Source: a virus
Strand: one strand, 5' to 3'
Length of the DNA: 20,374 nt
IMG/VR virus record: IMGVR_UViG_3300001419_000080
Coordinates: 1-20,374 of that record
The translations under genes were made by a program, and so were the position numbers. Of this stretch, positions 3,245-15,535 are shown in pieces (position 1 is the first letter of the stretch; each line of letters begins with the position of its first letter). Under the pieces are notes generated by a model. The model was not told the origin of the DNA. It made no database searches and saw nothing but the letters and a program-made list of their open reading frames with translations.

Positions 3245-3652
3245 ATGAAGCCAGAGATCAAAGAAGCATATATGCAAACTGCCGAGTTATTCTCTCAGGT
3301 TTCAAATTGTAAGAAACTCAAAGTAGGGGCTATTGTAGTTAAGAACGGGAGTATCTTAGCCCACGGATGGAACGGGACACCGTCTGGATTTCATACTAAT
3401 TGTTGCGAAAAGGAAGATGGTAGCACTAATCCGTTTGTTCTACATGCAGAACAAAACGCATTGATTAAAATGGCTAAATCTTCAGAGTCTATTGACGGAG
3501 CGGAATTGTTTTGTACTCACAGCCCGTGTCCCGATTGCTCCAAGATGATTGCGCAAGCCGGGGTTAAAAAGGTATATTATAGAAACGAATATAGAATCAC
3601 AGACGGCATCGGTGTGCTTCAGCAACTCGGTGTAGAAGTTGAAAAAATGTAA
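3245..3652 (+). CDS. dCMP deaminase (zinc-dependent cytidine/deoxycytidylate deaminase family)
   Basis: A 135-aa enzyme that deaminates dCMP to dUMP, feeding thymidylate synthesis for phage DNA replication. The zinc and catalytic motif is intact: H67-A-E69 (LHAEQNALIK) and PC-x2-C with C95 and C98 (SPCPDCSKM). The substrate-pocket motif GWNGTPSGF (residues 41-49) is typical of dCMP deaminases rather than cytidine or tRNA deaminases. It is shorter than T4 Cd (about 190 aa), lacking the long insertion, and resembles the compact ComEB-like forms. It sits among structural and orphan genes with its own TATAAT-type promoter at 3194-3223, which suggests early expression unlike its neighbours. There is no obvious SD (GAGACGCCCCTACAATG). 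The stop overlaps the next ATG by one base (TAATG). Confidence 0.93.
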   Translation: MKPEIKEAYMQTAELFSQVSNCKKLKVGAIVVKNGSILAHGWNGTPSGFHTNCCEKEDGSTNPFVLHAEQNALIKMAKSSESIDGAELFCTHSPCPDCSKMIAQAGVKKVYYRNEYRITDGIGVLQQLGVEVEKM

Positions 3653-11426: not shown

Positions 11427-13295
11427 ATGACCTCTGAAAATCCCCAAAGGCATATTAAATCTGGGTTTTTCGATCGTTATTTTTCCTTGGGAACTCCTCA
11501 GGGTAACTTAGCAGGATATAAATCAGATCCATACTCCTATTCAGGAGCGCCCTATCTAACAAGTGGGGTAATCCTCCCTCGTCGCGATGATATCCTCTTA
11601 GAGGAGGGTGGCGGAGGCCCACGGGCCATCGAGAAGTACATGAGGCTATTTAACGATAGCCAAATTCTTGCTGCCTGGGAGAAACTAATAGGAGAGATAG
11701 TTCAAAGGCCTTGGGAAGTTTACCCTTCCTCAGACTCCAACGAAGACGAGAAGATCGCAGAATTTGTGCGACAAGTCATAAATCGTATGGGAAGTAACAC
11801 AAGGCAATCCTATGGCAAAGAACAGCTAGTAGCAACTAACTCTGGATTTGATACTTTTATCAGAGGGATGTGCGAATCGATTGTCCTAGGGATGTCGATC
11901 GGCGAGATTTGTTGGATGAAGCAGGGCAAATACATCGTGCCCTCTGAGATTAAGATAAGAGACCCCCGGCGCTTCTTGTTCAGACTCAATGAAGATGGCA
12001 CTGTAAGTCCTAGGCTTATTACGATGTTCTCTCCTGTGGAGGGCATGGGTATACCGCTTAGGTCTATGATTATGCATAGACACTGGGCCTATAGTAATTT
12101 CATGGATGTTCATGGCTCTGGCCTCGGGCGGCAGCTATATCCCTTAGTAGAGTTTAGAAGAACTCTTTTAAATTTCTGGTTACAGTACGCCGATAAGCAC
12201 ACTACACCAACTGCTGTGGGTAAATTTAGCTTAGGCACCCCAGAGGAAGAGGTTAATTCTCTATTCACTGCGCTCCAGCGTTTAGGCCAAGAGACGGCAG
12301 TTGTGATCCCTGATGAGATGGATATCAGCTGGCTAGAGAGCAATGGTCGCCCAGAACTCTATAATCAGCTCATTACATATATTGACCAGCAAATCAGTTT
12401 TGTGATTAACGGCGAGACAACTGTTGGCCAGGAGACCGGGAGTGTTGGCTCATTTGCGCGCGATCAAATCGCCGACTCTGTGCGTATGAGAAAGGCCAAG
12501 GCATTCTCTGAAGAACTCGATGAGACAATCAACTCTACATTGGTCCGATGGATAGTAGAACTCAACTACCCTGGTAAGACTCCTCCTAGATTGGTTCGCA
12601 ACTTTGAAGACCTCAAGCAGCGCGAAGATCCAGTGCGCATGGTACAAGTACTTTCTCAACTTGGGGCTTTGGGCTATCAAGTAGAAGATATTGATTGGCT
12701 TAAAGAAAAACTTAACATCCCCTCTCTAACAAAACAAGAGATGCCCGAGGGAGGAATGATGGGAGGAATGATGCCTCCTATGGAAGGAGGAGCGGAAGAA
12801 GAGGCTCCGATGGCCGAAGACATGGACTTCGGTACGGATCTCATGAAACTCTTTGATTTTGAAGAGCCTTCTGAAAAGCAGAAGATATCTCAAGAGATTT
12901 CCGCTAAGTTCAAAGGAGACCTGGATGACGTAGGGTTCCAGAGAATTGTCACTGACTCCACCGGTAATGAGATGAATATCTCTAAGCTTAAGATTGACGA
13001 GTTCACGTCTCCAGGGGAGATCATCTTCGTTGTAGAAAGACTGCTAGAAGAAGTCAGAAACCTTCGCAGGATTTCTCCAGAGGCTGTGGAGTCTAAATCT
13101 CTATGCGAGACAGAACTCCAGAGAATGAAGTCGTTAATAGAGCAAGAGAGTCTTTCTGAGTGTGATTCAAAAGATCTTGTGGGTCTATATCAGAAAGCCT
13201 TCAGGTTAAATAGGTACTCTGTGCACAGGGAGGCCGTTACTTTGGACACAGAGGGTAAGGGATATTGGCGCTGGTTCGACCCTTATTTTCAATAA
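11427..13295 (+). CDS. Portal protein, Mu gp29-like (DUF935) with C-terminal extension
   Basis: A 622-aa portal protein that forms the dodecameric ring at one capsid vertex through which DNA is packaged and ejected. Residues about 60-390 follow the DUF935 order: 'AAWEKLIGEIVQRPWEVYPS', 'SIVLGMSIGEICW', 'IKIRDPRRFLFRLNEDG', 'RLITMFSP', 'HRHWAYSNFMDVHGSGLGRQ', 'KHTTPTAVGKFSLGTPEEEV', 'ETAVVIPDEMDISWLES', 'YIDQQISFVINGETTVGQET' and 'GSVGSFARDQIADSVRMRKA'. After about residue 435 there is an acidic, Met/Gly-rich linker (GGMMGGMMPPMEGGAEEEAP), then an extra ~150-residue domain without a recognised family, ending GYWRWFDPYFQ. The extension is beyond the usual Mu-like length. The start lies 12 nt after the upstream stop, with no strong SD. 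Portals of T4-like cyanophages belong to a different (gp20) family. Confidence 0.88.
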   Translation: MTSENPQRHIKSGFFDRYFSLGTPQGNLAGYKSDPYSYSGAPYLTSGVILPRRDDILLEEGGGGPRAIEKYMRLFNDSQILAAWEKLIGEIVQRPWEVYPSSDSNEDEKIAEFVRQVINRMGSNTRQSYGKEQLVATNSGFDTFIRGMCESIVLGMSIGEICWMKQGKYIVPSEIKIRDPRRFLFRLNEDGTVSPRLITMFSPVEGMGIPLRSMIMHRHWAYSNFMDVHGSGLGRQLYPLVEFRRTLLNFWLQYADKHTTPTAVGKFSLGTPEEEVNSLFTALQRLGQETAVVIPDEMDISWLESNGRPELYNQLITYIDQQISFVINGETTVGQETGSVGSFARDQIADSVRMRKAKAFSEELDETINSTLVRWIVELNYPGKTPPRLVRNFEDLKQREDPVRMVQVLSQLGALGYQVEDIDWLKEKLNIPSLTKQEMPEGGMMGGMMPPMEGGAEEEAPMAEDMDFGTDLMKLFDFEEPSEKQKISQEISAKFKGDLDDVGFQRIVTDSTGNEMNISKLKIDEFTSPGEIIFVVERLLEEVRNLRRISPEAVESKSLCETELQRMKSLIEQESLSECDSKDLVGLYQKAFRLNRYSVHREAVTLDTEGKGYWRWFDPYFQ

Positions 13296-13344: not shown

Positions 13345-13776
13345 ATGCTAAAATATAAGCCCATTACTCAAGCACAGTATTGGATTCAGTGTTCTGGTTT
13401 CACAAACCACTACTTCACTACTTTTTCCGGTATTAGAGACACATCTGGTACAACCCAATATGCCGATGGTGTAAGAGGACGTATCTTCCAGCTCAAGGGT
13501 CCTCGTACTCTTGCTGAAGTAACAATCTCTACTCCTTTCGACCCTGAAAAGCACGCTGACATCGTTGACTTCTGGAAGACCTATGACTGTTCCTTTGTAA
13601 CTCTAACCGTTACTCCCGTTAATTGCGGCGAAGACCCTACTCCTCTAGGCAGCAGAACAATCACTGTACCTGACGCTCAGATCACTTCACTTAACTTCGG
13701 TCAGGCCGACAGAGCCTCTACAAATGTCTCTACACTAGAGCTTACATTTGTAATGGATACATTCACCTATAACTGA
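13345..13776 (+). CDS. Tail tube protein (gp19-like)
   Basis: A 143-aa protein of the size and pattern of phage tail tube monomers. The N-terminal half holds short beta strands (YWIQCSGFTNHYFTTFSGI) and a 'RIFQLKGPRTLAEVTISTPF' strand. 'DFWKTYDCSFVTLTVTPVNC' and a long beta-loop-beta ending TLELTFVMDTFTYN follow. Tube subunits stack as hexameric rings inside the sheath and form the channel for DNA. It is next to the portal on the plus strand and about 12 kb from the sheath, which is on the minus strand. In most contractile phages sheath and tube are adjacent. C-ending codons dominate, consistent with high expression. An alternative is a related tube-like initiator or baseplate protein. Confidence 0.78.
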   Translation: MLKYKPITQAQYWIQCSGFTNHYFTTFSGIRDTSGTTQYADGVRGRIFQLKGPRTLAEVTISTPFDPEKHADIVDFWKTYDCSFVTLTVTPVNCGEDPTPLGSRTITVPDAQITSLNFGQADRASTNVSTLELTFVMDTFTYN

Positions 13777-13798: not shown

Positions 13799-15535
13799 AT
13801 GTCAACCTCTAATTTATTTTTTAAGGGTTGTTTTGATTCTGATCCTTTTTCCCACGAAGCGTTGTGCGAACTTGAAAGATTAGGTACAGAGAGCAATCTT
13901 AAAGATAAGTCCTGCTCGCGCGAAACAAATACGTGCGGGATGACTTTGCAACAACTTACAGACACTTATGAGTTCTATAACGATCAGAAAGGTTTATATA
14001 GGAACTGGGGAGATATTATTTTTCCTTGGGAAATTAAGAGCACTACAGACAATCTAGATTACGATAACGTTACAGACGACAGATGGAGCGTATCCCTTTA
14101 TAAGTCCTTAGTGTCTTATTTTATTGGGGATAAAGTTTTATACGTAGAAGATGATGGCTATAAGCTATCTCTATATGAAGCAACAGAAGACGTAAGTTCT
14201 ATCAGCGGTCCATTCGACCGGAGTAAATGGAATGAGATATGTAGCATCGAGTTGCCGGAGCCTTTTGGTTTACCGACAATAGAAGAATTACAGCAGAGAT
14301 ATAATTACTATCTCCCTTCTTTATTTTTTAAAGAATGGGAAGAACTTAGTTCTGATTGGGAAGAGGATCTATTTTTTCAATCCAAGGAATCTTGTAATAT
14401 TGCTGGCGAAGTCAAAAAACTAAATGACACGTTCTATTCTTACCAATCTAAAGGAAATTACTGGAAGCAGCTGCCTAGAACCGATGCTCATTGTTTAAGT
14501 GATAAAAGTTCAGACATTTGGAACGAGGCAAGAATAAGAAAATTATTCTTTTATAGAAGAAGAGACTTTGTACTTATAGATTCAAATTGCAAAGACACTC
14601 TTTGCCTGTATATGTGCGAAAGAGATCTACCCGCAAGTGTAGACAACCTAGAGAAATTTAAAAATTTTTCGACTCATTATGATTTTGACGGAACGTGGGC
14701 CTCGACTCTAGGCTCTCCTATAATAACCGCAACTATTCCCGACCATCCATTTAAAGTCGGGGATCAGATTAAAGTGGGTGTTTTATTTGAGGATACAAAC
14801 TATCCTGCAGGGATAAGAGATCACTCTACAGTATATAAAAACTACACTATAAGTACTATAGTGGATAAAGATACGTTTACGTACTCTGTGGGTAATAATT
14901 TAGACGAAGCTGCGGGTGGTAAAATTAATGTTATTGACTTTGGTCCTTTTTGGGTTAAAATTTATTGCGTGAAGACGGGAGTTAATAAGTGTCTAGAGCT
15001 TACTTCTGAGAAGGGGCTACCAAACTATCAATTTGTAGAGATAGGTTCTAAAGGCAATTTTGTTGAACAACCTCTTCCGTTTTATAACTTAGAAGGTAAT
15101 AATTTCTGTGGGGATCCACAAGAAACATTAAATGAAAAAGCAAATAAGCAAGCAAGAAGAGTATTAACTCAACAAGAAATTGACGCTCTTGATAATACCA
15201 ATTCTGTCTACACGTATGCAGTAACTGTACAAAGTACTAGCTGCGGCAATCGCTACTTTATTGAGGGCGTACAACAAAAAACTTTAAATCTTGTAGAAGG
15301 TAGGACCTATCGCTTTAATCAAAGTGACAGCTCTAACTTGAACCACCCTCTACGTTTTTCAATTACGTCTAATGGTACTCATAACGACGGAATCGAATTT
15401 ACTGAAGGCGTAACTATAGCCGGTACCGCCGGTAGCAACGGGGCTTATACTGAGATTATCGTGCCCACAGGGTCGCCTACTCTATACTATTATTGCGTTA
15501 ATCATTCGTTGATGGGTGGAATCGCATATACTTAA
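13799..15535 (+). CDS. Cysteine-rich virion structural protein with C-terminal cupredoxin-like domain
   Basis: A 578-aa multidomain protein. Residues about 100-145 have a 'YFIGDKVLYVEDDGYKLSLYEA...SKWNEI' layout reminiscent of small carbohydrate-binding modules of the CBM5/12 type. Residues about 295-375 contain an 'HPFKVGDQIKVG...YTISTIVDKDTFTYSVG' beta domain that recurs in cyanophage structural proteins. The last ~105 residues resemble a cupredoxin (blue copper) fold, with H516 in NHPLRF and C566, H569, M572 in YYYCVNHSLMGG. These fit the His-Cys-His-Met ligand set of type-1 copper sites. The protein has 15 cysteines, which is unusual for a virion protein. Its ATG follows an SD-like AGAGGG (13786-13791) at 7-nt spacing. 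Context (tube upstream, fibres downstream) points to a tail-tip, baseplate or fibre-base role. Confidence 0.7.
   Translation: MSTSNLFFKGCFDSDPFSHEALCELERLGTESNLKDKSCSRETNTCGMTLQQLTDTYEFYNDQKGLYRNWGDIIFPWEIKSTTDNLDYDNVTDDRWSVSLYKSLVSYFIGDKVLYVEDDGYKLSLYEATEDVSSISGPFDRSKWNEICSIELPEPFGLPTIEELQQRYNYYLPSLFFKEWEELSSDWEEDLFFQSKESCNIAGEVKKLNDTFYSYQSKGNYWKQLPRTDAHCLSDKSSDIWNEARIRKLFFYRRRDFVLIDSNCKDTLCLYMCERDLPASVDNLEKFKNFSTHYDFDGTWASTLGSPIITATIPDHPFKVGDQIKVGVLFEDTNYPAGIRDHSTVYKNYTISTIVDKDTFTYSVGNNLDEAAGGKINVIDFGPFWVKIYCVKTGVNKCLELTSEKGLPNYQFVEIGSKGNFVEQPLPFYNLEGNNFCGDPQETLNEKANKQARRVLTQQEIDALDNTNSVYTYAVTVQSTSCGNRYFIEGVQQKTLNLVEGRTYRFNQSDSSNLNHPLRFSITSNGTHNDGIEFTEGVTIAGTAGSNGAYTEIIVPTGSPTLYYYCVNHSLMGGIAYT

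Follow-up and report, generated by a model that had tools for sequence, protein, structure and literature searches.

Does a marine phage carry a type-1 copper site on one of its structural proteins, and, if so, what could the site do there? The question was raised by the window analysed here, a 20,374-base IMG/VR virus record whose gene order is syntenic with that of the marine myovirus S-TIM5 (Aurunvirus), the host of which is Synechococcus WH8102. A first-pass annotation had proposed a cupredoxin-like copper site at the C-terminus of a phage structural protein, hereafter the carrier protein. The features of the window that bear on this proposal are as follows.

11427-13295: portal gene, phrog_113, 5' of the carrier gene
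13345-13776: tail-tube-like gene, phrog_5102, 5' of the carrier gene
13799-15535, + strand: open reading frame of the carrier protein, 578 aa (ORF list)
13799-14668, + strand: conserved N-terminal scaffold, residues 1-290, common to all orthologues (alignment; 24 IMG/VR orthologues)
14669-14941, + strand: internal slot, residues ~291-381 (alignment; short orthologues)
15149-15199, + strand: linker, residues 451-467, predicted to be disordered with pLDDT < 50 (full-length model)
15200-15532, + strand: predicted cupredoxin (type-1-copper-like) domain, residues 468-578 (AlphaFold2, structure matches and profile matches)
15344-15346, + strand: His516, predicted first copper ligand (invariant in viral copies; aligns with the amicyanin ligand His)
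15494-15496, + strand: Cys566, predicted copper thiolate ligand (copy alignments, amicyanin register)
15503-15505, + strand: His569, predicted copper ligand (copy alignments, amicyanin register)
15512-15514, + strand: Met572, predicted axial ligand, Gln in two cellular relatives (copy alignments, amicyanin register)

The residues named as ligands in the first-pass annotation, H516, C566, H569 and M572, were found at exactly those numbers (codons beginning at 15344, 15494, 15503 and 15512, respectively). The C-terminal domain that it had drawn at 15211-15532 is real and spans approximately residues 468-578 (15200-15532); the start at 15211 had to be given up, being out of frame, with stops.

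The carrier protein is the orthologue of cyanophage S-TIM5 AEZ65678.1, whose record annotates it as "virion structural protein and packaging", and by that annotation it is a putative virion structural protein. The two proteins showed 40% identity over residues 1-465 and 70% over the cupredoxin domain in blastp. The order portal, tail protein, carrier gene and next structural genes is shared with S-TIM5, and a run of minor-tail and tail-fibre genes lies 3' of the carrier gene. The full-length model of the carrier protein (pLDDT 68.8) was too weak for its N-terminal fold to be named. A deaminase-like ORF was also observed between structural genes at 3245-3652, and its S-TIM5 counterpart is annotated as a deaminase.

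The structure of the C-terminal domain was predicted with AlphaFold2 using an input of 33 sequences, namely the window domain and its relatives from virus contigs. The model (pLDDT 92.8, pTM 0.87) is an eight-strand beta-sandwich, as expected of cupredoxins, which are Greek-key beta-sandwiches of about 8 strands. In domain numbering, the Cys ends strand 96-100, the Cys-His-Met loop precedes the last strand, 107-111, and His50 lies just before strand 52-55. The domain has the cupredoxin pattern His...Cys-x(2-4)-His-x(2-4)-Met with the Cys ending the penultimate strand; in the model, the placement of strands and ligands is the cupredoxin arrangement, and the predicted proximity of the ligands follows from this topology. 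The top Foldseek matches in the PDB were AcoP, the extra cupredoxin domain of Hyphomicrobium nitrite reductase, and rusticyanin. Their E-values were only ~1e-3, which we counted against the copper-domain reading, and lower rows included non-cupredoxins, among them a Shewanella aspartic peptidase and a titin Ig domain. VIA-align gave a Z of 9.5 to 2dv6 (nitrite reductase cupredoxin domain; 96 residues, 2.5 A) and 8.9 to rusticyanin, where models without a clear match typically peak at Z 7-8. The best 50 rows were all cupredoxin-domain proteins, and many laccase domains stood just below as near-ties. The structure prediction and comparison suggested in the first-pass annotation thus yielded a confident beta-sandwich, matched best in the PDB by what are mostly type-1 copper proteins. 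In BFVD, giant-virus "beta-sandwich" proteins (Pithovirus LCPAC302 and LCPAC304; Marseillevirus LCMAC201) also matched the domain model with E ~1e-6.

Kinship with copper proteins was examined using three profiles: A1 was built from close relatives alone, A9 from A1-type sequences and more divergent phage copies with zero cellular sequences, and A6 with cellular members added. PDB cupredoxins were not found with A1. Antibody chains led its PDB matches (E 0.1) because of a YYYC string, but the fold search and the broader profiles then led us to reject an immunoglobulin domain. A9 matched copper nitrite reductase (7.8e-5), amicyanin (9.5e-5), rusticyanin (2.7e-4) and plastocyanin (4.2e-4) in the PDB, and its His, Cys, His and Met line up with those of amicyanin 2gb2. 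A6 matched plastocyanin (2.5e-6) and amicyanin (5e-5), values that are slightly circular because two A6 sequences themselves match PF00127. When PF00127-matching proteins from SAR86, Pelagibacter and Bacteroidetes genomes (A4 and A5) were used as hhalign targets, the E-values were 5.7e-6 for A1 against A5, 2.4e-8 for A6 against A4, and 6.3e-6 for A9 against A4. These computations establish the homology with type-1 copper proteins.

None of the Pfam and NCBIfam models matched the window domain, including PF00127 Copper-bind (gathering cut-off 21.2 bits) and the amicyanin model TIGR02657 (cut-off 110.2 bits). Among its relatives, one P-SSM2 copy scored 21.0 bits and a SAR86 relative 17.9 bits with PF00127; the former also scored 21.5 bits with TIGR02657 and weakly matched a rusticyanin model. 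Pfam PF25489 (At5g54830-like domain) was hit weakly by several copies (L285, L289, L262 and others), a hint that the plant domain it describes is a cupredoxin too.

Compared with known copper proteins, the window domain is closest in its loop to amicyanin (TIGR02657; PDB 1aac and 2gb2), with which it shares the cupredoxin fold and a His followed by Cys-x2-His-x2-Met. The loops align without gaps, which bears out the type-1 order and spacing that the first-pass annotation had read from the four residues. After the first ligand, the domain has HP where amicyanin has HN; it also differs in belonging to a multidomain, putative virion protein and in standing outside any methylamine dehydrogenase context. 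It has the ligand order, fold and strand topology of plastocyanin and azurin (PF00127), whereas the plastocyanin loop is Cys-x2-His-x4-Met, so that alignment needs a two-residue loop gap, and the window domain contains a long Gly/Thr-rich insert (residues 523-548). A host-derived photosynthetic plastocyanin gene was rejected as its origin: the domain is fused to structural proteins and the plastocyanin model is unmatched. Rusticyanin and AcoP are its best single-domain structural matches, but both have longer loops and are soluble periplasmic electron carriers of acidophiles. The evidence from sequence and model supports the C-terminal 110 residues as a cupredoxin with an intact, amicyanin-spaced type-1 copper site, as predicted.

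If the site matters, its ligands should not vary freely. In a search that was partly motif-seeded, His, Cys, His and Met were present in 138 of 138 distinct copies from virus contigs; in the same kind of search, 64 of 67 copies from genome contigs had all four, the exceptions being two with Met replaced by Gln and one whose site was lost. The Gln-bearing cellular copies are L124 and L138, and Gln is the axial ligand of stellacyanin-type copper sites. The ligands stay fixed down to approximately 25-30% identity. A chance motif was rejected, since the DNA motif occurred once in the window and in 0 of 100 shuffles, and the ligands are conserved across copies. H528 was considered as a fifth ligand and is not required, as Trp replaces it in 8 of the 138 viral copies and the gp9 group lacks it.

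A further set was collected without motif seeding, from tblastn matches in named phages and by searching 18 whole phage records with a profile. It comprised 49 copies in 18 named phages: 26 with all four ligands, one without Met only, and 22 site-less. Every Cys-bearing copy had both His (27/27) and all but one had Met (26/27), and the Cys-less copies retained the first His in 1/22, the second His in 0/22 and Met in 1/22, with core Tyr and Phe persisting. The ligands are therefore kept or lost jointly (Fisher p < 1e-10, uncorrected for relatedness). The ligand-less copies, which retain the core, show that the fold does not need the ligands and that phages use it without metal too; this was counted against the copper reading. 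Read from the alignments, joint retention or loss of the ligands, in a fold that can do without them, is what selection on a metal site would predict. Both states can occur in one protein: gp7-like cyanophage proteins (L231, L264, L287, L279, L263 and L275) contain two tandem copies, of which the first keeps the ligands and the second has lost them. The first copy of the S-RIM4 gp7-like protein keeps all but Met. Separately, cyanophage PSS2 gp080 (L233:3992-4330) is a free-standing 112-aa protein consisting of a single ligand-less copy and is annotated as a baseplate wedge subunit.

The proposal that this domain type occurs in marine phage proteins proved correct on a large scale, as tblastn detected it at 573 places in 348 phage records, all of marine types. 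The carriers are phages of Synechococcus, Prochlorococcus, Pelagibacter and Methylophilales, together with marine single-cell or fosmid viruses. Each of the 18 phages examined has 1-5 copies, which record annotation assigns to tail fibres, to gp7 and gp9 and to structural proteins of great length. The domain matched phrog_30742 (5e-22), phrog_693 (1e-16) and phrog_677 (5e-8), the first two being matched by 34 of 34 relatives, and it is common to annotated tail-fibre and baseplate families (phrog_30742, 693, 677 and 708). Virion proteomics of S-CREM2 detected 24 peptides of gp130, which bears the sole detectable copy in that phage, a ligand-less one. In cells, proteins of Marine Group II archaea, SAR86 and SAR92 (L117, L120, L122, L142 and L130) have a lipoprotein-like start (lipobox-like N-terminus) and the domain at the C-terminus with intact ligands; these are candidate exported cupredoxins without a curated family. 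The Bacteroidetes relatives are long repetitive surface-type proteins, and some genome-contig matches (Pelagibacteraceae L106 and L111-L113) resemble phage fibres.

The domain is also mobile within the carrier protein itself. It was absent from the carrier orthologues in 24 other virus contigs (one orthologue truncated), and most of these orthologues are 352-381 aa long; the slot is empty in short orthologues. In L303, which is 61% identical to the carrier, a different beta domain occupies the slot. The window protein has an L303-type beta domain in the slot and the cupredoxin domain added C-terminally after the predicted disordered linker, and S-TIM5 and S-TIM54 have the cupredoxin domain inside the slot itself. 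Accordingly, a single protein has acquired the domain at two different sites, and the domain-less orthologues and the differing placement indicate that it is dispensable for the scaffold. The slot beta domain is apparently mobile as well. It weakly matches End_beta_barrel (PF12195, endosialidase beta-barrel), below the cut-off. The S-TIM54 orthologue (L251:181-6603) has 2140 aa, with ~1640 extra N-terminal residues that are absent from S-TIM5 and the window phage. Judged from sequence, the domain is a portable accessory module placed in tail fibres, baseplate gp7 and gp9 of marine phages.

Fold, topology, sequence profile and ligand conservation agree on a type-1-copper cupredoxin domain on a phage structural protein, as had been claimed. 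The alignments and the model make it probable that the window domain binds copper, and its exposure on the virion is likewise probable. Overall, we find it rather more plausible than not that the domain is an accessory module of the adsorption apparatus with a copper site.

The domain could instead be structural only, that is, a cupredoxin-fold decoration domain with an Ig-like role, metal-free in the virion, whose ligands are relics or stabilise the fold. About half of the copies in named phages are site-less yet keep the fold. Furthermore, its mobility resembles that of the Ig-like decoration domains of tailed-phage virion proteins, which are also beta-sandwiches in tail and fibre proteins and variably present among orthologues, although these have a different fold and no metal site. 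However, relics would decay one by one, whereas these ligands go together and hold at such low identities, and the ligand-less copies argue against a fold-stabilising role; we regard a purely structural domain as unlikely. That the site holds another metal in the virion, zinc or, by analogy with T4 gp37, iron, is very unlikely. Type-1 sites do bind zinc in vitro and seawater zinc can exceed free copper, but a Cys-His-His-Met set whose thioether ligand is conserved is characteristic of copper, and the swap of Met for Gln parallels known copper proteins.

If copper is bound, it might serve purposes other than adhesion. It has been proposed that marine phages attach with the help of iron bound at His-x-His sites of their tail fibres, the iron Trojan Horse (PMC11705849). 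By analogy with this nearest published idea, a copper-loaded domain might be recognised by a host metal-uptake receptor or carry copper with the virion. The domain does sit on adsorption parts, and lipoproteins of marine cells bear it too. T4 gp37-like fibre tips and the R22Y fibre likewise bear a metal-binding motif on an adsorption protein, but theirs is iron between trimer strands, with unrelated fold and ligands (PMC11705849). On the other hand, no copper receptor is known for these phages, no site-specific partner was found, and the domain also occurs in baseplate wedge proteins, away from the fibre tips. A copper version of the iron Trojan Horse is possible but unsupported, and we consider it quite improbable. 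A redox function has a similarly poor chance. In that reading the type-1 site would accept or donate electrons at the surface of the cell or remove oxidants, perhaps to protect the virion or as a redox trigger. The ligand set is that of electron-transfer proteins, but neither a redox partner nor an oxidase domain nor a second copper site was found in the carrier or its neighbours, and the copies are scattered over unrelated carriers.

Returning to the accessory module, we picture the domain as tethered through a flexible linker to a structural protein whose gene lies between tail-protein and tail-fibre genes in an S-TIM5-like marine cyanophage. The apo-domain would fold in the host cytoplasm and take up one copper ion after lysis. 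The copper would then pin the His516 loop to the Cys566-His569-Met572 loop, forming a rigid surface patch, which could provide a further contact to the host surface or to an adjacent tail protein. That the module acts in metal-stabilised adhesion or decoration rather than in redox chemistry or metal uptake is a tentative proposal. A bolder scenario, which we think unlikely, is that type-1 copper domains on marine phage baseplates and fibres, of cyanophages above all, are exchanged with archaeal and bacterial surface lipoproteins, and that loading with copper taken from seawater controls adsorption or tail triggering; if true, copper would be a cofactor of ocean phage infection.

The type-1 copper domain is of a known kind. 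We found no description of cupredoxin- or plastocyanin-like domains in phage tails or on virions in the open-access literature, most subscription papers lying outside the search; a widespread, exchangeable copper-site domain on marine phage tails, unnamed in curated libraries, is thus a setting that we did not find described. Metals on marine phages have been discussed so far for iron, on indirect evidence. The copper site predicted here recurs in hundreds of marine phage records, on host-contact proteins, and the analysis gives an identity to a library-unnamed domain that SAR86, SAR92 and Marine Group II archaea also bear, repeatedly, on their surface proteins. Since ligand-less copies in the same genomes provide a built-in natural control, whether ocean phages carry and use copper becomes directly testable. 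These viruses may carry copper on the parts with which they contact their hosts.
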